DNA of 64,000 nt from NCBI GenBank assembly GCA_903885795.1, contig CAISJV010000017.1, positions 62,001-126,000 of the forward strand, given 5' to 3'. Under the pieces are notes generated by a model. The model was not told the DNA's origin and did no database searches. It was given only the letters and a program-made list of their open reading frames with translations. This document shows positions 2,906 to 38,859 of the stretch, piece by piece (within the stretch, counting starts at the first letter, position 1; every line of letters starts with the position of its first letter). A program made the translations under genes and the position numbers. This stretch comes from an uncultured delta proteobacterium. GTDB lineage: Bacteria; Desulfobacterota; Syntrophia; Syntrophales; UBA8958.

Positions 2906-3637
2906 CTAAAATTCGATCGCAACCATCGAATCATCGATTACCCGGGCATGCAATGTTTTTTGTGACGTGGCATTTCGTATTCTTACCAACCCGCCCAACA
3001 CACCGTCTTCTTCGGAATACCCCAAGGCGCTGACAGATAATGAGCCGTTTTCATAAATGATCCGTACGGGAGCGCCTCTTTTGATTAAAATGGGCTGTTT
3101 CAGGTAGATTTGTTGAATTTCTCCATTTGCCGCAGTCCCGACTGTTAGCCTTTTCCCGATCACTTCCTTGGGATCACTGACGATGTTGGTGGCCATGCGG
3201 CTGACCCACTTTTTTACGACGTGGACGTCATCCCCCCCAATCTGGACATCACGAGCAAGACTGCGACTGGCGATAACGATATCTCTCTGGACCTCAATTC
3301 TCACCCCGACAATCGACTCCCTGATAAGGGAGCTACGATCATAGTATTTTACTGAATACCGGGCATCACCTATGTATCCCTGATTATGTAATTCCAAAAT
3401 CCTATGGGTGATTTTTTCACCCCTCAACACGATATCGTCACCATGTGAAGCAAACTCGAAACGAACGTTTTCCCTCGACCAAGGCATATTTTCTTCGATA
3501 TAGTCTTGGACGAGATTGTGTACTTGCCCCCACGTGATTTTGATTTCCTTCTGAACACCCGCGTAGGCACTGCTTCCTGCAAAGATCGATATAATTGCAA
3601 GCAACAGCAGGCTATTTACGTGCGGGAACCTGTTCAT
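2906..3637 (-). CDS. flgA: P-ring assembly chaperone FlgA
   Basis: A 243-residue periplasmic protein with a signal peptide (residues 1-26, ending SSAYA). The C-terminal half has the SAF-domain character of FlgA: VVKKWVSRM, then VIGKRLTVGTAANGEIQ and a terminal ARVIDDSMVAIEF. It assists FlgI polymerisation into the P-ring. Only four bases separate it from flgG, and its stop directly abuts the flgH start region, so it belongs to the flgF-flgG-flgA-flgH-flgI-flgJ run. Confidence 0.93.
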   Translation of the reverse strand: MNRFPHVNSLLLLAIISIFAGSSAYAGVQKEIKITWGQVHNLVQDYIEENMPWSRENVRFEFASHGDDIVLRGEKITHRILELHNQGYIGDARYSVKYYDRSSLIRESIVGVRIEVQRDIVIASRSLARDVQIGGDDVHVVKKWVSRMATNIVSDPKEVIGKRLTVGTAANGEIQQIYLKQPILIKRGAPVRIIYENGSLSVSALGYSEEDGVLGGLVRIRNATSQKTLHARVIDDSMVAIEF

Positions 3638-5145: not shown

Positions 5146-5174
5146 GGAATCCCTTTCGTTTACTTGTTATGCAA

Positions 5175-5189
5175 GCAATGAATATGCCA
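5175..5189 (-). promoter_or_regulatory. Candidate sigma-54 promoter of the flgF-flgM operon
   Basis: The minus strand reads TGGCATATTCATTGC, with GG and GC ten bases apart. The start site would be near 5163, leaving an 18-base leader before flgF. It lies in the 175-bp gap between the FlhB-like gene and flgF. Confidence 0.75.
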
Positions 5190-5626: not shown

Positions 5627-6783
5627 GCAAACAGACTAAGGGCCAAACGGTTATTGAAGGGCTGACGAGACAAATATTCCTGCCTCATAACATAAATATT
5701 CTCTTCAACCAGACATTGCAACCCCCCCACATCGTAACCTGCCCCCTCAAGTTTTACTTTCAGTTCATCGAGATAATTACCTACAAAATGTGATATATAT
5801 TCATTTTGACAGTGAAAGACAAAATCTACCTTTTTACCCTTAAATCTCGCATCAAGGGTAATCTCGCCAATTTGATCCAAATCTAAAAATATTGTCATGC
5901 GAAACGACGCTCCCTTTCCTTCATCAGCCTTTCCTTGTTCATTTTCCCGCTCAATGTAGATATCCTGCATGCGTACACCTTCCGGAAATGCAAAGGGGAT
6001 CTGTAGAATATATGGTCCGTCACTTTCTCGGGATACAACATTGAGGATCTGATGGGCCTCAAGGGCAGATATGGATTCTTCGGCAAAGGAACAAAGCTGT
6101 TTTAATTGATTAAGGAGGGTATCGTCGATGTTCGAAACATCACCCATGAAGGCGTTGAGGTTCTGTAATATATCCATGAACAATCTTTTGACGGAAGTTT
6201 GGTCGTCCCCTTTGGAAATCTTTGATCCCTGAACAAGGTATTTTACCAGATCATGCTCCATGTTAAGACCAAGGATTTTAGCATAGTTCGTCAAGTTATT
6301 GACGAACGGCTGGGTTATTCCCGAGACAATAATTTTCTCCGAGAGTTGCGATATCTTCTCTAAATTTGCATTAATTATCATCAACGATGGTGGCAAGGAT
6401 TTTGAGTTTGTTAACAATTCGCCGATTTTTGAAAATATTTCTCCCAGGGCTACCGGGTTGGATCTGTGAAGGAGCAGGTATTTATTGATTACAGCCGCTT
6501 CGCCCTGGGTCGAAGAGATCACACGCAGCAGAATGGCGGGTGTCAATTTTTCGACCTGTACCGTGATTTTCTCACCCGCCGTCAAGGGCATCTGAGAGTC
6601 GGCCAACATTGAGGAATTCTTTATATTCATCAGATACTGGCTACCAGGCAACGCCTTCATCACTGTTGCTTCGAGGGTATCTCCCACAGACAAGGATAGG
6701 GCACCAAGATTCGTCCGTGAGGAGGAACGGTTTATCTCCGTTACACCCGCTATCTTTGTTGTCGCCGTAAGGATCGTGGTCAT
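5623..6783 (-). CDS. FliK-like protein with hook-length-control C-terminal domain
   Basis: 386 residues. The C-terminal 120 residues have the type III substrate-specificity fold seen in FliK (FRMTIFLDLDQIGEITLDAR, then VGNYLDELKVKLEGAGYDV), while the N-terminal part is poorly conserved. A genuine FliK is encoded at 22657-24909, so this is a second member of the family. Its translational coupling to the FlhB-domain protein suggests that the two act together on the export gate. It also overlaps the DUF2802-like gene by four bases. It resembles YlqG in layout. The function is inferred. Confidence 0.75.
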   Translation of the reverse strand: MTTILTATTKIAGVTEINRSSSRTNLGALSLSVGDTLEATVMKALPGSQYLMNIKNSSMLADSQMPLTAGEKITVQVEKLTPAILLRVISSTQGEAAVINKYLLLHRSNPVALGEIFSKIGELLTNSKSLPPSLMIINANLEKISQLSEKIIVSGITQPFVNNLTNYAKILGLNMEHDLVKYLVQGSKISKGDDQTSVKRLFMDILQNLNAFMGDVSNIDDTLLNQLKQLCSFAEESISALEAHQILNVVSRESDGPYILQIPFAFPEGVRMQDIYIERENEQGKADEGKGASFRMTIFLDLDQIGEITLDARFKGKKVDFVFHCQNEYISHFVGNYLDELKVKLEGAGYDVGGLQCLVEENIYVMRQEYLSRQPFNNRLALSLFA

Positions 6784-8445: not shown

Positions 8446-9030
8446 CTACAGTAGTAAAAACTTAGTTATGTAAGTTTCTTTAACTTTTTCAGCATCCAGC
8501 AGGCGGTTGACGCCTTCCGTGATTTCTTTCTTGATGGCTTTTTTCCCGTCATTTCTGATCAAATCGCTCACCGTTCGCTTATGAACGGTGTCAAAGATAA
8601 GTCTTCTAATTTCGATCCTCGATTCGATGGATTTCCCATCTTCTTGAGGCGCCATCTCCAATAGGAATCCACAGGACAACAGCCTTGTATTTCCTTTATC
8701 ATCTTTCACGTCAATATTAAAGTTATCCATGACTGCCATGAATGATTTCTGCAGTTGCGTACCGGCCACTACAACAGGGACCATGGTTTTCTTTTCGCTC
8801 TTGTGTAGCCAGTTAAAATATCCGGCTAAGACAACTATGATAATTATAATTATTGACGATGAAGCTATCCAATATAACTTCTTTTTGTTTTTGTTGATAA
8901 CTTCCGGAAGCGACGGCGTCTCACTACCTTCAATAAGCGCTGGTTTGCTGCCAACAGTGATGTCTGTCGTGATCTCTTCATCTTCAATGAGCGGCAGATC
9001 AAGTATATCAATCTGTGCCTTCTGTTTCAT
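8446..9030 (-). CDS. Second FliL-like protein
   Basis: 194 residues: a cytoplasmic N-terminal segment of about 50 residues, one membrane helix (about residues 55-75), and a periplasmic domain. The end (VHKRTVSDLIRNDGKKAIKK ... VKETYITKFLLL) parallels that of the canonical FliL here (SAKTYKELMDVGGKQRLREE ... ISKVYFTEFVVQ). FliL proteins form rings around stator units. A second one downstream of fliA may serve another stator type or modulate the first. The assignment rests on this architecture and terminal motif; the middle is divergent. Confidence 0.65.
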   Translation of the reverse strand: MKQKAQIDILDLPLIEDEEITTDITVGSKPALIEGSETPSLPEVINKNKKKLYWIASSSIIIIIIVVLAGYFNWLHKSEKKTMVPVVVAGTQLQKSFMAVMDNFNIDVKDDKGNTRLLSCGFLLEMAPQEDGKSIESRIEIRRLIFDTVHKRTVSDLIRNDGKKAIKKEITEGVNRLLDAEKVKETYITKFLLL

Positions 9031-9047
9031 AACTACAAACCTTAGGT

Positions 9048-9755
9048 TTAAAGATGTTTTACCGCTCCGCGAAGCCTTAACATGGCCTGAGAATGAAGTT
9101 GGCAGACTCTTGATTCTGTCAATTCAAGAATCTTTCCAATCTCTTTCATCGTGCATTCTTCATAATAATACAATGCAACAACCAACCTTTCCTTTTTAGG
9201 CAACTGGTCGATGGCGCTCTTCAACCCTTCCCTCAGTTCTCCGGTGGCAAATATTTCATAAGGATTCTGCTTATCGATAACTTTGAGCACCCCCTGATTG
9301 TCGACATTTTCAAGATAATCGGGAGGCAGGTCCTCAACGCTAATCACGCCTATATATTTCGCGTCATCAAGTAAACGGAAGTATTCATCAAGGTCGATGC
9401 CGAGATGTTTTGCTACTTCTTCATCAACAGGCGGACGGCCGAGCTGCTTCTGCAACGTAAAGAATGCCTTCTCCAATTTACTGTCTTTATCCCGAACGGA
9501 CCGTGGTACCCAGTCGCCTGCTCTCAGTTCATCGAGAACAGCACCGCGAATTCGGAATTTTGCAAAAGTTTCAAACTGAACATTCCTCGTGTCGTCATAC
9601 TTGTCCAACGCTCCCATGAGCCCGATCATACCCACGTTAATGAACGACTCTTTATCTGAATGATCAATAGGTATTTTTGCTGTCATCCTTGACACGATAT
9701 TTTTCACAAGTGGCGTGTACTTAAGGATGAGGCAATCCCGTTCTTTTCTATCCAT
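9048..9755 (-). CDS. fliA: Flagellar sigma factor FliA (sigma-28)
   Basis: 235 residues of the sigma-28/WhiG family, directing RNA polymerase to late flagellar and chemotaxis promoters. Region 2 is seen in MIGLMGALDKYDDTRNVQFE and ETFAKFRIRGAVLDELR, region 3 follows, and region 4 ends LTESRVCQLHSQAMLRLR. The ATG at 9755 overlaps the flhG stop (ATGGATAG) and gives the usual N-terminus; an in-frame start at 9791 would extend it by 12 residues into flhG. It is antagonised by FlgM, encoded at the end of the same gene run. Confidence 0.95.
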   Translation of the reverse strand: MDRKERDCLILKYTPLVKNIVSRMTAKIPIDHSDKESFINVGMIGLMGALDKYDDTRNVQFETFAKFRIRGAVLDELRAGDWVPRSVRDKDSKLEKAFFTLQKQLGRPPVDEEVAKHLGIDLDEYFRLLDDAKYIGVISVEDLPPDYLENVDNQGVLKVIDKQNPYEIFATGELREGLKSAIDQLPKKERLVVALYYYEECTMKEIGKILELTESRVCQLHSQAMLRLRGAVKHL

Positions 9756-10653
9756 GATCCTGTCCGATAACCGAAGCTCCGAAAAAGACAACGTTTCCTT
9801 CTTCTTGTATCTCGGGCGTTTCCTTTAGGAGTTTTTCTGCAATTTGACGCAGACACCTGCTGCCAATGGATGAGGGATACAACTCCATCAAAGCTTTCTG
9901 CCTTTTTACTGCCTCTTGACATTTTTCGTCGTACAAAACATATCCCAAATATTCCAAATGGATATTCAAAAAATGGTCGGTGACTGATCTTAGGCGACCG
10001 AATACTTCCTTAGCTTCCCCAGGCGACCGAACCATATTAACGATTAGCTTAAATCGCTTCTTTGCATAATTTTTGTTCAGAATCTTCATCAGGGCATAGG
10101 CATCGGTAATGGACGGAGGCTCCGGAGAGGTAACCACAATGATTTCTTTAGCAGCCATATTAAAATACATCACATTCGCAGCAATGCCTGCGGCCGTGTC
10201 AATAAGCATGAAATCAGGTCGATCCTTGAGGCGATTGAGTTCATCAACAAGGGTTAGCTTGTGTCCTTTGGAAAGATCGGCCATATCTGCTATTCCTGAC
10301 GACGACGGCAAGATCATGATTCCTCCCGGACCTTTTATAATTATTTCGTCGAGGGTTTTTTGACCATTCAGTAGGTGATAGAGATTATATTTCGGCGTCA
10401 GACCAAGAATAAGATCGATATTGGCAAGTCCTGTGTCGGCATCCAATATTAGGGTTTTTTGATTCATGGATGATAGTGCAAAGGCCAAGTTAGCGGTGAT
10501 GTTCGTTTTACCGACACCTCCCTTACCGCTTGTTATAGCAATCACACGAATGTATTCCTGTTTAGTCATTTTATCTCGTAGCGAACCAGCTACATTATTC
10601 TTTTTTAATTCCTGCTGTCTCTTAATTTGTCTAAGCGGAGTCGCTTGATCCAC
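9748..10653 (-). CDS. flhG: MinD-like ATPase FlhG (YlxH)
   Basis: 301 residues. A deviant Walker A motif SGKGGVGKTNITANLA (about residues 38-53) and the switch DADTGLANIDLILGL place it with ParA/MinD ATPases of the FlhG/FleN type, which set flagellar number and placement together with FlhF. A C-terminal amphipathic helix (LRQIAEKLLKE) could bind membrane. The N-terminal basic stretch (LRQIKRQQELKK) resembles the activating DQAxxLR motif that stimulates FlhF. It starts with GTG after AAGAGG, sits 15 bases after flhF and overlaps fliA. Confidence 0.94.
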   Translation of the reverse strand: MDQATPLRQIKRQQELKKNNVAGSLRDKMTKQEYIRVIAITSGKGGVGKTNITANLAFALSSMNQKTLILDADTGLANIDLILGLTPKYNLYHLLNGQKTLDEIIIKGPGGIMILPSSSGIADMADLSKGHKLTLVDELNRLKDRPDFMLIDTAAGIAANVMYFNMAAKEIIVVTSPEPPSITDAYALMKILNKNYAKKRFKLIVNMVRSPGEAKEVFGRLRSVTDHFLNIHLEYLGYVLYDEKCQEAVKRQKALMELYPSSIGSRCLRQIAEKLLKETPEIQEEGNVVFFGASVIGQDHG

Positions 10654-18869: not shown

Positions 18870-19373
18870 TTACTGGACAACAAACTCGGTAAAATATACT
18901 TTTGATATTTTTGCCGTCGAGACTATGCTGTTCAGTCGCATTACGACTTCCTCTCGCAATCGCTGCTTCCCACCGACATCCATCAGTTCCTTATATGTTT
19001 TGGCAGACAGTAGGTCGAGAATGTTATCCCTCATTTTTGGTTTCAACAAATCCAACTCTTTAACGCCCAGCGGATCACTAATTTCCAATTGCATGATCAG
19101 CTTCAAGTACCTCTCTCCCTGATTATCTTGAAGATTAATAATGAAGGGTTCCATCGGATAGACAGTGCCAATGACCGGCTGATTTTGTACAACTGGCTTC
19201 TTTGCTACAGGCTTCATGAAGAAATAATAACCAGCGCCAGCACCGCCAGTAAGCAATACGAGAACCACTGAAATAATCAGAATCCATTTCAGCAGGGGAC
19301 CTTTCTTCTTTGGTTGTGGCTTTTCATCAAGCTGCTCCGCATCGTCAAGTTCATCTTTTTTCCCTTTCGACAC
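18870..19373 (-). CDS. fliL: Flagellar basal body-associated protein FliL
   Basis: 167 residues: a short charged cytoplasmic tail, one membrane helix (about residues 28-50), and a periplasmic domain with PMEPFIINLQDNQGERYLKL and the terminal KISKVYFTEFVVQ. FliL surrounds the stator and supports torque. The start is GTG at 19373, with GGAGGG about ten bases upstream; the nearby ATG is in another frame. It is the first intact gene of the fliL-to-fliA run. Confidence 0.95.
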   Translation of the reverse strand: MSKGKKDELDDAEQLDEKPQPKKKGPLLKWILIISVVLVLLTGGAGAGYYFFMKPVAKKPVVQNQPVIGTVYPMEPFIINLQDNQGERYLKLIMQLEISDPLGVKELDLLKPKMRDNILDLLSAKTYKELMDVGGKQRLREEVVMRLNSIVSTAKISKVYFTEFVVQ

Positions 19374-19394
19374 TTTTTCATCCCTCCTTCTATC

Positions 19395-19664
19395 TTATGA
19401 CCTGAATACAATTTTAATTATGTGCTTAGGAACGTCCTTCAAGTTGCTGTATCCCATTGCTGATAATCGTTGTGGTTGCATACGTCCATGTTCGATTAAA
19501 TACCTGGTTATGATCCCAGCCTTGAGCATGCTCATCTGAACGGGTGGACGCGCCGATGATTCCGATGATCGTCGCTTTATCCAAAAGATATACACCCTGA
19601 TTGGAATATCCTTCCGTACCTCTTGCTGATGTGTTACATAAGCCTTCAGCAATATATATACCAA
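19395..19664 (-). pseudogene. Relic resembling the MotB/OmpA C-terminal domain
   Basis: An 89-codon frame between fliL and an unknown gene. Its last 47 residues contain SMLKAGIITRYLIEHGRMQP and QRLSAMGYSN, a clear match to the OmpA-like peptidoglycan-binding domain of MotB (S..RA..V.RYLIEHG, RLSA.GY). The short ending KIVFRS matches the last strand, but the loop before it is deleted. The GHTD motif, transmembrane helix and N-terminus are absent. The only upstream start is a TTG lying on a sigma-54 promoter. Since motA-motB genes commonly flank fliL in this position in related bacteria, I read this as the remnant of a lost stator pair. Confidence 0.6.
19649..19663 (-). promoter_or_regulatory. 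Candidate sigma-54 promoter upstream of fliL
   Basis: The minus strand reads TGGTATATATATTGC, with GG and GC ten bases apart. The start site would be near 19637, giving a leader of about 260 bases that runs through the MotB-like relic before fliL. It may originally have served that lost gene. It is the only good promoter I see between the flgE terminator and fliL. Confidence 0.5.
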
Positions 19665-19752
19665 TTCAAATAATATTCATAACCATCTAATTACATTCAT
19701 TAATAATATTGACGTGGGATATATGAATCAGGGAAATGGAGTGAAAGGAATC

Positions 19753-19766
19753 GTCATTTTATTGAC
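19753..19766. promoter_or_regulatory. FleQ-box-like palindrome
   Basis: GTCATTTTATTGAC fits the GTCA-N6-TGAC form of the FleQ-binding box known from Pseudomonas. It is centred about 123 bp upstream of the start predicted for the promoter at 19649-19663, within non-coding DNA. Whether a FleQ-type regulator exists here is not shown by this window. Confidence 0.35.
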
Positions 19767-19802
19767 GACATGATGAACGCCAACAGCTACACAGTTAAAA
19801 CC

Positions 19803-20093
19803 TTAAGCCCAGATATCAATCACAGTGCCCTTTTCTTTGCGATTGGGTGATAATGAATACATTATGGCGTAAGGATCTCGCACAGAACGGGATGATCGGG
19901 TGAAGTCGAGGTCTACTTGGATGAAATCGTCCGGGGTTATATCGACAATGTCTTTGATATACTTATACTGCAGTGTAACGTCTTGTACCTCGCTCCCGAC
20001 TTCAGAATCCGCGTATCTAGTACCTCTTATTTTTGCTAGCACGGCTAGCTGGTTTTCCGGAGCAGCGAGGGGATATGCGGGTTTGATTTCCAT
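19803..20093 (-). CDS. Unknown 96-residue protein between flgE and fliL
   Basis: I do not recognise this protein. It has no signal peptide, membrane segment or cysteine and looks soluble and mixed alpha/beta: AVLAKIRGTRYADSEVGSEV near the start, then DIVDITPDDFIQVDLDFTRS, ending in hydrophobic VIDIWA. The ATG has only a weak ribosome-binding site. It follows the flgE terminator and precedes the MotB-like relic, so it may be expressed on its own. The composition looks protein-like, but a decayed gene cannot be excluded. Confidence 0.5.
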   Translation of the reverse strand: MEIKPAYPLAAPENQLAVLAKIRGTRYADSEVGSEVQDVTLQYKYIKDIVDITPDDFIQVDLDFTRSSRSVRDPYAIMYSLSPNRKEKGTVIDIWA

Positions 20094-20257: not shown

Positions 20258-21919
20258 TTATCGCTTGATCTGCATCAGCTCCTGGAGCATCTCATCCGTC
20301 GTGGTAATGATCTTCGAACTTGCCTGATAGGCGCGTTGAGCGGCGATCATCTTGATGAATTCCTTGGCCACATCGGTATTGGAAATTTCCAGAGAGTGGG
20401 ACTGGCACTTGCCAAGACCGCCCTCGCCTGGATTTCCAATACTTGGCGTTCCTGAATCGTTAGTTTCGGTGAAATAGCTTCCTACTTTGCTAAGACCGTC
20501 CATACTGCTAAAGCTCGCCGTCCGTATTCTGGCTAGGTTCTGCTGCTGACCGTTCGTAAAGAATCCCGTGATGATTCCATCCCCGCCAACATCGAGGGAA
20601 TTCAGCAGTCCCGCAGGATAGCCGTCGTTGCTCATGGAATTAACCCGCGAATCCATGGCATATGAGGTGACTTCCGGTGCGGCGGCTCCGGTTATATCCC
20701 AGGTGATTTTCCCGCCATCCCCCCAGGAGGTGTTCTGGGCAGAAAAATCAAAGGTGATGTTCTGCGCTATTCCCCTTCCCTCTTGTCCGAAGGGATTGGT
20801 AGTCTTCATAGCTCCGAAAGCAGCTACGGCGTCAGAAGTACCGCCAACGAAATTAAGCTCCTTGGTGCTTTCCCCCGTCACCTTATCGATAAGAACAAGG
20901 CGGCCTTCAACAATCATCGCCTTTTCGTTGGCGTTTGTCTCGATGTCATTTAATAAAGCTTGGATACTATCTTTCTTGTTAAGGGGATCAGAATCGATTG
21001 TAAATGTATATGTTACGGCTGTAGGACTACTATCTAAGGTATAAAGTATAGTGTCACTATTGTTAAAGCTATACGTCGAAGTCCCAGCAGCATTGAAAAA
21101 ATTAGCCCATTTTGTATCTGCCGTTATTGGCGCACCAGAAGAATCCTTCAATATCTGATCTGCGGCAATCGCTTCTCTTGTTGCCGAAATCTTTATTTTT
21201 CCCGCATCGTCAAATTCCAACCAGGGACGGTCTGGAATAACGGGTGTCCCTTCATCGATATCAGACTTTATATACCAAAAAGTGCGTTCGCCCTCGGCTG
21301 TAGTGACATTAACGGAGCGATAGAGTTTTGAAGCTAACGCATGCTTCGAACCTTGGGAATCATAGATCGTTTGGCTTGTCGTATAGTAATTAGGAATATC
21401 ATCGGCAGACAATTCCGAATCAAGGTTCAATCCGAGTTCAAATACTGTCGTCTCCCGCGGCGTTGATTTTCGTCCCGTAAGGTTGATCGCAGTTAGTGCT
21501 GTCGATTCCACTCCCGCGTCGTCGAACATCCTTCCCAGAACCTTATAGCCGCTATTATCAACAAGATCGCCGGCTGCATTAAGGAAAAAGCTACCGGCAC
21601 GGGTGTAATAGGTCATATCATCTTTAGAATTTTTAACAATAAAAAAACCTGTTCCGTCAATGGCGAGGTCCGTGGCGCTTCCTGTTGTTTCGTAAGATCC
21701 CTGGGCAAACGAAGTGGATACGGCCGCGACGCCAACCCCCTGGCCTACCTGCTGATTACCACCACCACCGGATAGACTCTGACTCAGCATGCTGGCAAAA
21801 GATACCTGTCCGCATTTGTAACCGATCGTATTGGAGTTTGCCAGATTGTTTCCGATCACGTCCATCTCCTTGGTGCTCGCTGATAATCCTGTCGTCCCGA
21901 TCCAAAGTGCGCTTGACAT
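20258..21919 (-). CDS. flgE: Flagellar hook protein FlgE
   Basis: 553 residues, longer than enteric FlgE (about 400) because of extra surface domains in the middle. The N-terminal rod/hook motif NNLANSNTIGYKCGQVSFAS and the C-terminal AKEFIKMIAAQRAYQASSKI form the coiled-coil core, and DLAIDGTGFFIV is the conserved first-domain segment. Hook subunits are exported by the type III gate and polymerise under the FlgD cap. It follows flgD and ends at a strong terminator. Confidence 0.97.
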   Translation of the reverse strand: MSSALWIGTTGLSASTKEMDVIGNNLANSNTIGYKCGQVSFASMLSQSLSGGGGNQQVGQGVGVAAVSTSFAQGSYETTGSATDLAIDGTGFFIVKNSKDDMTYYTRAGSFFLNAAGDLVDNSGYKVLGRMFDDAGVESTALTAINLTGRKSTPRETTVFELGLNLDSELSADDIPNYYTTSQTIYDSQGSKHALASKLYRSVNVTTAEGERTFWYIKSDIDEGTPVIPDRPWLEFDDAGKIKISATREAIAADQILKDSSGAPITADTKWANFFNAAGTSTYSFNNSDTILYTLDSSPTAVTYTFTIDSDPLNKKDSIQALLNDIETNANEKAMIVEGRLVLIDKVTGESTKELNFVGGTSDAVAAFGAMKTTNPFGQEGRGIAQNITFDFSAQNTSWGDGGKITWDITGAAAPEVTSYAMDSRVNSMSNDGYPAGLLNSLDVGGDGIITGFFTNGQQQNLARIRTASFSSMDGLSKVGSYFTETNDSGTPSIGNPGEGGLGKCQSHSLEISNTDVAKEFIKMIAAQRAYQASSKIITTTDEMLQELMQIKR

Positions 21920-22656: not shown

Positions 22657-24909
22657 TCAGGCAAAAATGCTGACCCCTTCCATGTTGTTTTGCTTCTGGA
22701 TAATCTCCTGGATATTTTTCGGATAATTATCCTCCCCTAAATATAACTCCCGATTCAACATTCTCTCATGATGGCTATTCTGCCCATGATTATTGAACCA
22801 TGAATTTGTTTGATCTTGATAAAAGTTCCGTTCCGGATTGGGCTGATTTTGCAGCGTAACTTCAATTCTATCGATCTTCAGCCCTTGATTATTTAGAGCC
22901 GTTTTAAGATCATCAATATGGGCATTCATCGCCTGCTGTATCTTTTCATTTTCTACTGTCATCATGATCTGGACAGTTTCATTACGGACAGCGATCTGCA
23001 TATCCAGATGACCCAAAATCTCCGGCTTAAGGGTCAATCTGACCTGCCCATTGTCCTTGTCCTGAGCAATGGCGAAGCTGTCCTTGATTTGATCGACGAC
23101 GGATTGATATATGGATTTTGAATTATCCATATTTATTTTACCAGGATGAAATTCGAGGCCTTTTGCATTCATGCTCAAGATATCAGAATTTAATGGCATC
23201 TTTTCCCTGCTAACAGGAAAGATGATTTCTTCATCCCCGGCTTGACTTGTTTTTGCAGAAACATCTACGGATAATTTGGGCAATTTCCCCTGATCTTCTT
23301 GAGCTGTTACCGTGATGACCCTACCGAACTTTTGTGAAGCTGCTCCTTCTTCATTTTTAATCGTCTGTCTATTCTCTGCTCCCTCCATCGCAACCGAAAA
23401 GACATTCTTCTTTTCCGGATGCTGAGTATTTTCATATTGTTTAAGTAATTCCTTTTGCGCCCCCTCCTTTACCAGTTGCTTTTCTGGTGGATTGACTTGG
23501 AGCTGGCCTTCAACTTTTTCATGTCTGAAATCTTCCAAAGACGTTTCTTTTTGATATATATCGGCATGGATATTATTTCTGCTAAAGATAGCTTCTTTTA
23601 TGAATTCTCTATGATACAAAGACTCTTGAACGAATATTGGCTGCTCTGAACCGGTTTGGATTATTCGACTTAATCCAACCATACCTTGCCCAACTGCCTT
23701 CAGGATGCCTTTGATCTCTTCAGCTGAGAATCCCCTTTCCTTAAGGATCGAACCGGCAGTTTGTCTGAATGACGGCGATATCGACTCAATATGGGCTGGG
23801 GACTTCCCCACCGTATCTTGCTTTACCTCAGGCGCCTTCGCCATGATTATCTGATCAAGTTCCATCAGGATGACTTCGATGTCGTCCTGAGGAATTCCTT
23901 TTCCCTCCAGCGCCGTGACCAATCGATTCTTAATTTCCTGCTGATTTTTCGTCTTTAGAGGCGAGTCAACTGGCGCAGATTGGAAAGTTGTTTCTTTGAC
24001 TACTCTCAGTGCGCCTTTGATGCCCTCGGTTGAAAATCCCCTTTTTTCAAGTATCTTCAGAATATCATGTCTGAACGATTGCTCTGCTGGTTCAATCAAT
24101 GACTTCCCTACCACTAGTTGCTGTGCCTCGGGTGTCTTCGTTGTAATTACATGATCAAGTTCCTTGTGAGATTGAGACTTCCCCCCGGTATCTTCGTTTA
24201 TATCGAGAACCTTCTCCGCTATTGCCTGATCAAGTTCTGTCAGAATGAATTCGATTGCATCGGCCGGGATTCCTTTCCCCTCCAGCAACATGACCAACTG
24301 ATTCTTCATTTCCGGAATTATTGTTGGATTGGTTTCCGTTAGGGGATTATTTTTCTTTACCATCGCGGGAAAGATTTCTTTATGTTGCTTCCCAAAGTTA
24401 TCAGCGGTCTCATTAAGCAAACTGTCTTCCGGGCCGACAAGCCCTCTTATCCCTTCCTCTTGAATAGCAGCAAAGGACTCTGCAGCCGTTTTATCGAGGC
24501 CTGCAGCCTCCAATTGGGTAGTCTTTTTTTCGATAAATGGGTAAATATATGCAGGTGCCGCACAGGTATCTTTCGGCTCGTCAATGCTCTTTTCATCAGC
24601 AGGCCTATTCGTTGCTTCGCCGAGGGAGGCATTCACTTCGCCCTTTTTGCATTTCCCATTGTCCTGCGCAGTGTTATGGTTACTGACTGAGGAGATTTTG
24701 CCCGTCTGGGTATCATCATATCCCGTGGCAAGATCTTTTTCAGTCTGATTGTGATTCAGATATTCAGCCATGGTAATTTGCATCATCTCGAGAAAATTAT
24801 TTGGCGAACTAATTTTTGAGGGACAGGCAGACATTTTTCCCAACCAAGCTTCATTTGCCCCTGAGGGTTTTTGATCCTTCATCACAGTAATAATTTCTAT
24901 TGTCGGCAT
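22657..24909 (-). CDS. fliK: Hook-length control protein FliK
   Basis: 750 residues, nearly twice the enteric length. The C-terminal domain (QVRLTLKPEILGHLDMQIAV, then HIDDLKTALNNQGLKIDRIE) is the specificity-switch domain that contacts FlhB. The long N-terminal ruler region contains an imperfect tandem duplication, about 24309-23993 and 23934-23686: KN.LV..LEGKGIP.D.IE.IL.ELDQ followed by SFR....IL..RGFS.E.IKG. I set the start at 24909 (MPTIEIITVM) because GGAGAAG lies just upstream. The in-frame start at 24963 would cover the sigma-54 promoter. Confidence 0.93.
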   Translation of the reverse strand: MPTIEIITVMKDQKPSGANEAWLGKMSACPSKISSPNNFLEMMQITMAEYLNHNQTEKDLATGYDDTQTGKISSVSNHNTAQDNGKCKKGEVNASLGEATNRPADEKSIDEPKDTCAAPAYIYPFIEKKTTQLEAAGLDKTAAESFAAIQEEGIRGLVGPEDSLLNETADNFGKQHKEIFPAMVKKNNPLTETNPTIIPEMKNQLVMLLEGKGIPADAIEFILTELDQAIAEKVLDINEDTGGKSQSHKELDHVITTKTPEAQQLVVGKSLIEPAEQSFRHDILKILEKRGFSTEGIKGALRVVKETTFQSAPVDSPLKTKNQQEIKNRLVTALEGKGIPQDDIEVILMELDQIIMAKAPEVKQDTVGKSPAHIESISPSFRQTAGSILKERGFSAEEIKGILKAVGQGMVGLSRIIQTGSEQPIFVQESLYHREFIKEAIFSRNNIHADIYQKETSLEDFRHEKVEGQLQVNPPEKQLVKEGAQKELLKQYENTQHPEKKNVFSVAMEGAENRQTIKNEEGAASQKFGRVITVTAQEDQGKLPKLSVDVSAKTSQAGDEEIIFPVSREKMPLNSDILSMNAKGLEFHPGKINMDNSKSIYQSVVDQIKDSFAIAQDKDNGQVRLTLKPEILGHLDMQIAVRNETVQIMMTVENEKIQQAMNAHIDDLKTALNNQGLKIDRIEVTLQNQPNPERNFYQDQTNSWFNNHGQNSHHERMLNRELYLGEDNYPKNIQEIIQKQNNMEGVSIFA
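23686..24309 (-). repeat. Imperfect tandem duplication inside fliK
   Basis: Two units of roughly 80-105 codons encode related protein blocks. Unit 1 has LVMLLEGKGIPADAIEFIL and ILEKRGFSTEGIKGALRVV; unit 2 has LVTALEGKGIPQDDIEVIL and ILKERGFSAEEIKGILKAV. Unit 1 also carries an extra inner repeat of the LDQ-to-GKS segment. The DNA is visibly similar in both units, which suggests a fairly recent duplication. Confidence 0.8.
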
Positions 24910-24947
24910 ATCTTCTCCGTAACATACCCTGGTTGAGCTTAATCTAA

Positions 24948-24962
24948 GCAAGGGGCATGCCA
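24948..24962 (-). promoter_or_regulatory. Candidate sigma-54 promoter of fliK-flgD-flgE
   Basis: The minus strand reads TGGCATGCCCCTTGC, with GG and GC ten bases apart. The start site would be near 24937, leaving a leader of about 27 bases before the fliK ATG at 24909. Confidence 0.78.
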
Positions 24963-24981
24963 CGTGTTAATAACCATTAAT

Positions 24982-32131: not shown

Positions 32132-32168
32132 CCTATTCCCTATCTATTGATTTCTATCGAACAGTAAT

Positions 32169-32183
32169 GCAAAGCATATACCA
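32169..32183 (-). promoter_or_regulatory. Candidate sigma-54 promoter of the flgB operon
   Basis: The minus strand reads TGGTATATGCTTTGC, with GG and GC ten bases apart, just past the stop codon of the FlrC-type gene. The start site would be near 32157, about 26 bases before flgB. No copy of the GGAAAATATTTCC motif is visible nearby. Confidence 0.68.
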
Positions 32184-34362: not shown

Positions 34363-36543
34363 TCAATTCGGCGTCAATCCCTTATACCTTCCTCTCCAGG
34401 TGGCGTCTTCCGACATGTAATCTGCCACCTTTGTCCAGAATGCGTCATCACCGCCTCCCTTGAGGTTTGCAATATGCTTCTTGGCGCCGTCACTATCGGA
34501 TAATTTTATCTCACACATAGCCCGGCGATATAAAATCCACCGCCTATCGGTTCTATCAGCATCATTTAGGGCTTCTTCATACCATTTCATTGCTTCCTGA
34601 TATTTTTCTTCCAAGTACAGACGGTCCCCTGCGGTCATGAGATTTTCATTCCCGTAAACCTCCCCCTGCTTCAGATTTTCTATATCTCTTTTGATATTTG
34701 CCCTGACAAAGCTATCCTTGCAGACCGCATCCATATAATTAAGCATTGCCAGCGCATCTTTTTTAAATGAGAGTTTTTGCAGCGCCGTCGCAATTTTCAT
34801 CAACGTGTCTTCGTCAGGCTGGTCATAAAACCCTTTATGGAAGGTCTTAAAATACAGGTCAGCCATCGACAGATAATCTTCGCGATTATATAAATCATGG
34901 ACCAGGGATTTGAAGGCACTTTTTAGAACTTTTGACGTTTCCTGCGCATATGGTCCTTTGGGATACCTTGTGATTGCATCGCTTGATATTTCAAAGGCTT
35001 CGAGAAAACAACCGGTTTTCTCCAAGCCACGGGCCTTAAGATAAAGGACGCGCTGCATGGTTTCAGTGTCAGGTAAGGCAGAAAGAACCAGATCATAGTT
35101 GGCAATGGGGTTTTCAACATATTTGCTGCCCGTCATTGCTGCAGGAATCTTTATTTCCGGATGAAGAATCCCCAGATTTGCCAAGGCAATCAGGCTTTCC
35201 GTTGCTTCCCGGGAACCCGGATATGCTTCAATGACCTGGGAAAATAGTTGCAGGGAGGTTCGGTATTGGCGACTGCCGTAAAATGACGCCGCTAAAGCAT
35301 AATACGCCGATTTAGCCTGGTCGCCATGGGGATAAATGCTCAAAAAGAACGACAACGATTCGATTGCCTCTTGATATCTTCCCGATTCATACTGAAGGCA
35401 TCCCATGTACAGGATAGCATCCTTGGGTATGTCTGACTTGTTCGGCCATCTTTTCAAGGTATCTTCATACCATTTAAGGGCGTTCTGCAGATCCTTTATC
35501 TCATAGTAGCTTTCCGCCAACGATAATCGTGCCTCCCGATTGTATTTTCCAGTGGGATAATTTTTCAGATATAATTGCAGGCGGTCTGCGGCCTGAGCGT
35601 ATCTGCCTATTTTTCGCGTCATTACCGCTGCCCCAAACATGGCCTCCTGGATTAATGCCGAATCGGGATACTTTTTCATGAGTCCGTCATAGGCGGCGCC
35701 CGCCTCATAATAGAATTTCAAACTGCCATAGCTCATCGCCAATCGATAATAGGCCAGATCATTCTCTTCCTTCGGATCCTGATAATTCCGTAAGATGGCC
35801 TTGTAATGCTCAACAGCGATAATATGTTTTCCTGCGAATCCCTGTTCACCCATGAAAAAATAACAATCGGCCAGGCGACGAACTGTTCTTTCGTATGTCG
35901 AGCTATCGACATTATTTTGACGCGTTATTTGATGGAACATCTCCGCCGCCCGATCATACTGATGATTTTGAAATGACTGCATCGCCTTCTCGATAATTGA
36001 ATTTTGGGGCGCAGCCTGTGAACTTGTAGGGGTGTTTACCGCTGTAGTTATGACGGATACGGCCGGTGGAGTCACCTTGGGTTTTGCAGCCTGATAGTCA
36101 ATACTATGACGCTCATCTAATTTTGATTTCTCTACAACAGATTGGAGATTCGTAGATTTGCCCGCTGCTTTCTCTACAGCAGGTTTGTATTCCGTGGATT
36201 TTAAAACAGACGTGTTTGCCCGATAAATCAGTCGATTAGGCATATCATAGACTTTGCGTAACACGCTTTCTGGATATACTTGCCGAATTTTTTCTAAATT
36301 TGCCGATCCATCTATCTGTTCTGAATATTTGCCGATCCTGACGGTATACTGCGCACCGATTTTCTCCACACTGACATCGTTCACTTTTTCAGCTGCCAGC
36401 TTTTTAGCTTCTCTCAGGGCGTTATTCTTTTCATTATTTGTCATGACCTGAATGGTATATATTTTGGTGGGTTCGGAAAGAACGGTTTGCACTGAGAAAA
36501 TAAAAACCAGTAAAGTCAGATTGATACAAAATGTCTTCACCAT
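34363..36543 (-). CDS. Exported SPOR-like/TPR-repeat protein
   Basis: 726 residues. A signal peptide (MVKTFCINLTLLVFIFSVQT) is followed by a SPOR-like domain (about residues 24-95: IYTIQVMTNNEKNNALREAK, YTVRIGKYSEQ), a low-complexity linker, and at least eight TPR-like units such as AKSAYYALAASFYGSRQYRT and YQEAMKWYEEALNDADRTDR. SPOR domains bind denuded peptidoglycan and TPRs bind proteins, so a periplasmic scaffold or sensor is likely. The start at 36543 has AAAGG upstream; the start at 36657 would read through the promoter. It leads the operon with the FlrB/FlrC-type genes. Confidence 0.8.
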   Translation of the reverse strand: MVKTFCINLTLLVFIFSVQTVLSEPTKIYTIQVMTNNEKNNALREAKKLAAEKVNDVSVEKIGAQYTVRIGKYSEQIDGSANLEKIRQVYPESVLRKVYDMPNRLIYRANTSVLKSTEYKPAVEKAAGKSTNLQSVVEKSKLDERHSIDYQAAKPKVTPPAVSVITTAVNTPTSSQAAPQNSIIEKAMQSFQNHQYDRAAEMFHQITRQNNVDSSTYERTVRRLADCYFFMGEQGFAGKHIIAVEHYKAILRNYQDPKEENDLAYYRLAMSYGSLKFYYEAGAAYDGLMKKYPDSALIQEAMFGAAVMTRKIGRYAQAADRLQLYLKNYPTGKYNREARLSLAESYYEIKDLQNALKWYEDTLKRWPNKSDIPKDAILYMGCLQYESGRYQEAIESLSFFLSIYPHGDQAKSAYYALAASFYGSRQYRTSLQLFSQVIEAYPGSREATESLIALANLGILHPEIKIPAAMTGSKYVENPIANYDLVLSALPDTETMQRVLYLKARGLEKTGCFLEAFEISSDAITRYPKGPYAQETSKVLKSAFKSLVHDLYNREDYLSMADLYFKTFHKGFYDQPDEDTLMKIATALQKLSFKKDALAMLNYMDAVCKDSFVRANIKRDIENLKQGEVYGNENLMTAGDRLYLEEKYQEAMKWYEEALNDADRTDRRWILYRRAMCEIKLSDSDGAKKHIANLKGGGDDAFWTKVADYMSEDATWRGRYKGLTPN

Positions 36544-36582
36544 TCCGGATTGCCTTTCAATTAAGTAATCACAGAACCTGAC

Positions 36583-36598
36583 AGCAATTACCGTACCA
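36583..36598 (-). promoter_or_regulatory. Candidate sigma-54 promoter of the TPR-flrB-flrC operon
   Basis: The minus strand reads TGGTACGGTAATTGCT, with GG and GC ten bases apart. The start site would be near 36572, about 29 bases before the TPR start codon. It diverges from the promoter at 36629-36644, with about 30 bp between the two -24 boxes. Confidence 0.68.
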
Positions 36599-36628
36599 TG
36601 ATCTTTACTGTGACCTTCACCGTGCAGG

Positions 36629-36644
36629 TGGCACCCCATTTGCA
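36629..36644 (+). promoter_or_regulatory. Sigma-54 promoter of PilZ-motA-motB
   Basis: TGGCACCCCATTTGCA matches the sigma-54 consensus at every conserved position. The start site would be near 36655, about 25 bases before the PilZ gene. It is the strongest promoter match in the window. Confidence 0.88.
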
Positions 36645-36679
36645 AGTCAATTTTCAATATTTCTCAAACGGGGGGCAGT

Positions 36680-37230: not shown

Positions 37231-38088
37231 ATGTTTGTCATTATTGGTGTGCTCTTTGTGACTGCGTGCGTGATCGGCGGTTACCTTCTGGAACACGGTA
37301 AATTAGAAGTACTGTTCCAACCGGTGGAGCTGTTGATCATCGGCGGGGCTGCTTGTGGTGGGTTTCTCATTGCCGCACCCCTTAAGACCATCAAGTCTGT
37401 CGTGGGCGCTTTGTTGTCCATGCTGACTCATAAACCCTACGGCAAAGAGGAATACCTGGATTCTTTGAGATTGCTTAACGGAATTTTTTACAAAATCAGG
37501 CAACAGGGTCTGGTTTCCATTGAAAGCGATGTGGATCAGCCCGAAAATAGTCCTCTTTTTAATAAATTCCCAAAAATTTTACACAACCACCGTGCCATCG
37601 GACTTATCACTGATACCCTACGCCTGGTCATGACGACCACAATAGCCTCGCACGAGCTGGAAGCACTTATCGATACCGAATTGGAAGGTCATTTTGAAGA
37701 ACTCATCACCCCTTCCAAAATGGTAAATTTTGTTGCTGATTCCCTCCCTGGCCTCGGTATCGTGGCTGCCGTTCTCGGGATAGTCTTGACTATGGCGAAA
37801 ATAGATTCGCCGCCCTCCGTACTGGGGAACAGCATCGGCGCCGCCCTGGTGGGAACCTTTCTCGGCGTTCTCCTCTGCTATGGTTATGTTGGACCGATGG
37901 GGAAAAACCTCGAACATGCCGCCATGGAAGACCTACAGTTTCTTGTTGTTTACAAGGTGGCGCTGGTGTCCTTCGTCGGTGGCGCCGCCCCCAAGGTTGC
38001 CCTGGAATTCGGACGGAGGGTCATCCCCCACGAATCTAAACCGGGTTTTCTGGAGGTCGAAGAAGCACTGAGGGCGCAGAAGAAATAA
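37231..38088 (+). CDS. motA: Flagellar stator protein MotA
   Basis: 285 residues, like the E. coli protein (295). It has four membrane segments (FVIIGVLFVTACVIGGYLL first, then VVAAP-like pore helices) and the cytoplasmic loop with charged residues for FliG. The conserved DSLPGLGIVAAVLGIVLTM and GAALVGTFLGVLLCYGYVGP are helices three and four. With MotB it forms the proton-driven stator. It lies eight bases after the PilZ gene. Confidence 0.97.
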   Translation: MFVIIGVLFVTACVIGGYLLEHGKLEVLFQPVELLIIGGAACGGFLIAAPLKTIKSVVGALLSMLTHKPYGKEEYLDSLRLLNGIFYKIRQQGLVSIESDVDQPENSPLFNKFPKILHNHRAIGLITDTLRLVMTTTIASHELEALIDTELEGHFEELITPSKMVNFVADSLPGLGIVAAVLGIVLTMAKIDSPPSVLGNSIGAALVGTFLGVLLCYGYVGPMGKNLEHAAMEDLQFLVVYKVALVSFVGGAAPKVALEFGRRVIPHESKPGFLEVEEALRAQKK

Positions 38089-38859
38089 ATGGACGATAAA
38101 GCAACAATCATTATAAAAAGAGGGAAGAACAAGAAACACGAAGGTCATCATGGCGGTTCCTGGAAGGTCGCCTATGCCGATTTCGTGACCGCGATGATGG
38201 CCTTTTTTCTATTGATGTGGCTGATCACCATGGTCTCTCCCGAAAAGAAACTGGCCGTTTCCGAATATTTCAAAGAACAGAATGTGTTCAAAGAGGCGTC
38301 TTCGTCATCAAGTAAATCAATCATGTCCGCGAACCCCGGTGCGATAAGTGGCGCGAAGCCGGCAGGAAAGGCAGGCGCTACAGATCTTGTGGCCAAAATG
38401 AAGAATGCTGTAGAGCAGAAGCTTCAGAGTTTCAGAAATCAGGTCGTCATCGACATCGTGGAAGGAGGAGTTCGCATCCAACTGATCGATATGGAGGGAA
38501 GCATGATGTTTCCCGTGGGGAGCAATGATCTGAGTGCCCGGGGAAAAGAAATCCTAAAGCTCGTTGCCGAGAATATCAAAGACCTTCCCAATCGCATCGC
38601 CGTCGAGGGCCATACTGATGCCGCCCCCTTCACAGCCAAAGGTGCACATGTAACTAACTGGGAGCTTTCTACCTCCAGGGCTTCTGCGGCGCGGCGGGAA
38701 TTGGAAAACAACGGGATTGCCCCCACGAGCATCGCCAGAGTCGTGGGGTATGCCGATCAGGAATTGTACATCAAGGAAAATCCGAATGATCCGCGTAACC
38801 GGAGAATCAGCATTATCGTTCTCCAGCCCCGGCAACAAGTCATGCAGCAATTAAGGTAA
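38089..38859 (+). CDS. motB: Flagellar stator protein MotB
   Basis: 256 residues. The N-terminus has GGSWKVAYADFVTAMMAFFL, whose aspartate in YADF is the proton-binding residue in the membrane helix. The C-terminal OmpA-like domain (IAVEGHTDAAP, then NWELSTSRASAARRELENNG) anchors it to peptidoglycan. The ATG directly follows the motA stop. Its closest residues near GYADQEL differ from the relic at 19395-19664, so the relic is not a copy of this gene. Confidence 0.97.
   Translation: MDDKATIIIKRGKNKKHEGHHGGSWKVAYADFVTAMMAFFLLMWLITMVSPEKKLAVSEYFKEQNVFKEASSSSSKSIMSANPGAISGAKPAGKAGATDLVAKMKNAVEQKLQSFRNQVVIDIVEGGVRIQLIDMEGSMMFPVGSNDLSARGKEILKLVAENIKDLPNRIAVEGHTDAAPFTAKGAHVTNWELSTSRASAARRELENNGIAPTSIARVVGYADQELYIKENPNDPRNRRISIIVLQPRQQVMQQLR

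Follow-up and report, generated by a model that had tools for sequence, protein, structure and literature searches.

In dual-stator bacteria two sets of stator proteins serve a single flagellar system. The bacterium considered here resembles them in that two stator sets are ancestral in its genus, of which its genome keeps one, but differs in that one set has been deleted or has degenerated in several lineages while the promoter and fliL persist. For the arrangement of the lost genes the nearest described case found is that of Aquifex aeolicus, which has a motA/motB1/motB2 operon whose two MotB products have nearly identical N-terminal/transmembrane regions (PMC4525482). One motA followed by two motB genes was also the order in the lost locus, though in the latter's relatives it is MotB2, not MotB1, that carries the transmembrane aspartate, and a separate second stator exists. 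With regard to control, the relevant comparison is with the FleQ/sigma-54 flagellar operons of Pseudomonas (PMC10723142, PMC6120874), which likewise have a dyad of the GTCAA-TTGAC type 5′ of a sigma-54 flagellar promoter; here, however, the phylum is another one and the activator is putative.

The DNA analysed, 64,000 nucleotides from an uncultured delta proteobacterium and referred to below as the window, has on its minus strand, in this order, flgE, a 96-aa ORF, a non-coding stretch with a sigma-54 site, an 89-aa frame, fliL and fliM (Table 1). We consider it very likely that 19395-19584 is the scar of a single deletion of ~2 kb in a sigma-54-driven motA-motB1-motB2-fliL operon, and that the loss was tolerated via the second stator. 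It took out the greater part of motA, motB1 entirely and ~80% of motB2. The promoter with the dyad upstream of it, the leader and the ribosome-binding site of fliL outlived it, so that fliL is now probably the first complete gene of the transcript. Loss of this stator set in the window species is probably recent.

Table 1. Features of the scar, its surroundings and the retained stator, in window coordinates
Feature	Position	Strand	Remarks
flgE	20258-21919	-	from the ORF list
96-aa ORF	19803-20093	-	function unknown; between flgE and the promoter
FleQ-box-like dyad CGTCAATAAAATGACG	19752-19767		putative enhancer (activator) site of the sigma-54 promoter
Sigma-54 promoter TGGTATATATATTGCT	19648-19663	-	exact consensus match; probably once belonged to the motA-motB1-motB2-fliL operon; fliL now follows it directly
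89-aa frame	19395-19664	-	opens with TTG; from the ORF list
motA remnant	19545-19584	-	~13 codons from the TTG start on, LDKATIIGIIGAS; matches the beginning of motA in G001, G005 and G006
Deletion junction	19535-19545	-	...GGCGCGTCCA joined to CCCGTTCAG..., also written ...ATCATCGGCGCGTCCA joined to CCCGTTCAGATGAGCATG...; ~2 kb absent relative to G005
52-aa fusion ORF	19426-19584	-	motA start read out of frame into motB2 DNA; follows from the junction
motB2 remnant	19395-19544	-	last ~48 codons and stop; 69% aa identity to G005 MotB2
fliL	18870-19373	-	GTG start; Pfam FliL E 1.3e-24; Shine-Dalgarno AAGGAGGG at ~19382-19389
Second stator	37231-38859	+	motA 37231-38088, motB 38089-38859

What, then, is the 89-aa frame? 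The initial annotation had taken it for the relic of a MotB gene because of an OmpA/MotB segment at its end, and the segment is real: the last 45 residues match the C-terminus of the intact 227-aa MotB2 in the syntenic locus of a relative, G005, at 31 of 45 positions (E 1e-20). The relic reading stands for 19395-19544 only, the sole MotB-derived part, and what it missed is the beginning of motA, present in another frame at 19545-19584, for which the N-terminus of intact MotA, LDIATIIGIIGAF, serves as comparison. The frame is thus evidently a mosaic, derived from MotB2 in its C-terminal half only, its first half consisting of promoter, leader and, in the wrong frame, motA. A search with the Pfam OmpA profile, which had been proposed as a check, gave for the frame alone just 16.7 bits (E 0.0094), below the cut-off of 27.2, and this would favour a chance ORF with a MotB-like segment and no kinship to a stator gene. 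That explanation, of negligible probability, is refuted by the DNA, which is homologous and collinear to either side of the junction, together with the match to the syntenic MotB2; it is from the syntenic relatives, not from the profile, that homology is certain. The absence of GHTD, of a transmembrane part and of a valid start, also claimed at the outset, is borne out in each case. The TTG given as start (19664) falls within the promoter, 5′ of the predicted transcript start, and neither of the in-frame ATGs at 19535 and 19529 is preceded by a Shine-Dalgarno sequence. With no transmembrane segment the remnant lacks the ion-binding Asp of a functional MotB, and of the peptidoglycan-binding OmpA domain (GHTD...NWELS...RA) only the C-terminal part is there. 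GHTD is, however, also missing from the intact MotB2 of G005 and G006, and since these close relatives already lack it, its absence from the remnant is partly ancestral, the parental motB2 of this clade having been without GHTD before the deletion.

Comparison of the flgE-fliL interval with relatives, another of the checks proposed, supplies the ancestral order: flgE, the 96-aa ORF, the sigma-54 promoter, motA, motB1, motB2 and fliL. As the initial annotation had stated for related bacteria, mot genes do precede fliL, and in G005 and G006, which are of the same genus, motA (257 aa), motB1 (234-246 aa) and motB2 (227 aa) lie intact between the 96-aa ORF and fliL. A lost stator with its promoter left to fliL is accordingly what the relatives indicate, except that three genes and not a pair were involved. 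Window DNA is collinear with that of relatives on both sides of the gap (identity 75-86%); for G005 the figures are 75% for the stretch between flgE and codon 13 of motA and 82% from the last ~48 codons of motB2 through fliL. The alignment breaks at query 756-766, corresponding to G005 positions 3559 and 5537, a gap of ~1.98 kb, with both ends of the scar identified, the 5′ end of motA and the 3′ end of motB2. Of the genes on either side, fliL has a dN/dS of ~0.1 against relatives, and the 96-aa ORF, which has orthologues in G001, G005 and G006 only and no Pfam or NCBIfam match, has 0.26-0.36. Elsewhere in the window, at 8446-9030 (minus strand), a divergent second FliL-like protein of 194 aa is encoded 3′ of a flagellar-type sigma factor gene (9048-9791).

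Could the ~2 kb be present in the organism and have been collapsed or skipped in assembly? The genome, a draft of 95 contigs, is apparently metagenome-assembled, as the near relatives with names (Syntrophus sp. and Deltaproteobacteria) are MAGs, so a chimeric join is conceivable. Yet the sequence is unbroken within a contig of 238 kb, no long repeat is seen at the junction, and no other contig carries motA, motB1 or motB2. A search of the 4.0-Mb assembly to which the window belongs (G000) with G005 MotB2 found the remnant as the sole MotB2 trace, the rest being distantly related OmpA/MotB proteins; G005 MotA matched only the distant retained MotA (25%) and the MotB_plug profile only the retained motB. 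No functional copy of the fliL-linked stator was found elsewhere in the assembly, whose other stator is of a different type. Moreover, no mot genes precede fliL in nine relatives (G010, G051, G025, G015, G033, G055, G044, G028 and G057), and the locus is partly deleted in a sister species, G001. An artefact is accordingly very unlikely.

The G001 case is instructive in its own right. Its motA is complete, but ~10 bases past the stop codon the sequence continues within motB2, ~28 codons short of the end of that gene; the whole of motB1 and the greater part of motB2 are gone. Judged by fliL dS, G001 stands nearer to G005 (0.25) than to the window (0.56); as the end-points also differ, the two deletions are evidently separate events. 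The motA of G001 (L040), an orphan with no linked motB, is under strong constraint (dN/dS 0.07-0.10), and so either the deletion may be young or the orphan MotA may still work with another MotB, perhaps that of the other stator. That both independent deletions leave the last 28-48 codons of motB2 is among the reasons for asking if the scar retains a function, either through translation of a leader peptide (from the 52-aa ORF or from the MotB2 tail) or through control of fliL by an RNA leader. The frame of the tail is also still open, and its dN/dS against G005 (0.27) does not exceed the 0.34 obtained for intact motB2 when G005 and G006 are compared. On the other hand, a young deletion accounts for the low value, and a ratio from a 45-codon tail fits either reading; deletions extending further would harm the fliL ribosome-binding site; and no start for the tail has a Shine-Dalgarno sequence. 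The 52-aa ORF (MDKATIIGIIGAS...), which starts as MotA and is in another frame than the 89-aa one, is a chance out-of-frame product, made by the deletion and probably non-functional. We judge continued function improbable and favour a scar that would have none.

The sigma-54 promoter ahead of fliL, as first annotated, has survived scrutiny: it is exact both in the consensus TGGYAYR-N4-TTGCW and in the GG-N10-GC spacing. Exact sites number 6 in the window against 0.13 expected from shuffling. The other five, also on the minus strand, are at 48-63, 5174-5189, 24947-24962, 32168-32183 and 36583-36598; those at 24947 and 36583 are inside the 5′ ends of the long ORFs 22657-24963 and 34363-36657, whose true starts are therefore probably further in. 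Orthologous to the scar's promoter are TGGTACGTAAATTGCT in G001 and TGGTACGCAAATTGCT in G005 and G006, and of the 32 loci whose upstream sequence is long enough, 31 have a site with no more than one mismatch in front of motA or fliL (exact in 27). It is kept in 8 of the 9 relatives without stator genes ahead of fliL, two of which (G055 and G028) have different surroundings, flgE not being found upstream of fliL. The window promoter is by these comparisons orthologous to the motA-operon promoter, and as it probably once served the whole motA-B1-B2-fliL operon, it would have been kept, rather than recruited, for fliL. If active, it would give a leader of ~264 nt to the fliL GTG. A dyad, CGTCA-N6-TGACG, is 104 bases 5′ of the -24 element in the window, G001, G005 and G006, and 20 of 28 loci have it with no more than one mismatch, its distance being variable further out. 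Since it resembles the Pseudomonas FleQ box, GTCAAT-N2-ATTGAC (PMC10723142), a FleQ-like activator may reasonably be supposed to act here. Perfect FleQ-box-like dyads are at 6289-6304 and 19752-19767, and matches to the pattern with up to two mismatches are enriched in the window (39 versus 13.8 expected).

How was loss of a stator tolerated? Presumably through the complete MotA1-type stator that the cell retains. Its MotA scores 359 bits as NCBIfam MotA1 equivalog (cut-off 303.8), and its MotB has both the transmembrane Asp (YADF) and EGHTD. Orthologues of this second MotB (E < 1e-50; for the same genus and family, MotB_plug and MotA matches away from fliL) are in 10/10 genomes lacking the fliL-linked set and in 14/22 of those keeping it (Fisher p 0.035). 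Degeneration of the peptidoglycan motif in MotB1 or MotB2, scored by eye, was seen in 10 genomes with a detected second stator and in one without (p 0.024), the sole exception being G006, a draft genome; with all forms of decay pooled the association with a second stator has p 0.0005. These tests were chosen after the data had been seen and count related species as independent, and so are suggestive only. Between G005 and G006 dN/dS is 0.34 for motB1 and motB2 and 0.06 for motA, as would fit a relaxation of constraint on the MotB proteins before they were lost.

A side finding concerns the MotB pair itself. At the position of the ion-binding Asp, MotB1 carries Ser or Ala in every one of the 21 intact fliL-linked loci, while MotB2 retains the Asp in 21/21. 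L041, L045, L101 and L109 are among the fliL-linked loci so constituted. The same tandem pairing is in 5 among the best 30 phylum-wide loci (L130, L132, L134, L136 and L147), where each partner has a peptidoglycan-binding motif (EGHTD or a near variant), and Asp-less MotB is found in the phylum-wide loci L127 and L156. A literature search found no Asp-less MotB paralogue described, which does not of itself prove absence from the literature. Conservation suggests that MotB1 and MotB2 may form a heteromeric, single-Asp stator axle. More tentatively, and with somewhat less than even confidence, the lost locus may belong to a widespread Desulfobacterota stator that has as its axle a heterodimer of MotB1 (Asp-less, the peptidoglycan anchor) and MotB2 (with Asp), hence one ion site versus the two of known MotB dimers, and that may decay stepwise in lineages with a second stator: the peptidoglycan-binding motif would degenerate, the motB genes would then be deleted and finally the whole set lost with promoter-fliL left, the window and G001 being midway.

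The scar is ordinary gene loss, unusually well documented, with the same loss at several stages in relatives. The stator loss is well bracketed: the scar is fresh in one species, a sister has kept motA without a linked motB, and in relatives the locus is either intact or empty, the promoter and fliL being kept in nearly all. This series makes stator redundancy, and the role of FliL after loss of the linked stator, testable by comparison. The intact tandem-MotB locus from which the scar derives poses a more interesting question than the scar does, as tandem MotB proteins with Asp in one copy only are a question for current MotA5B2 models.
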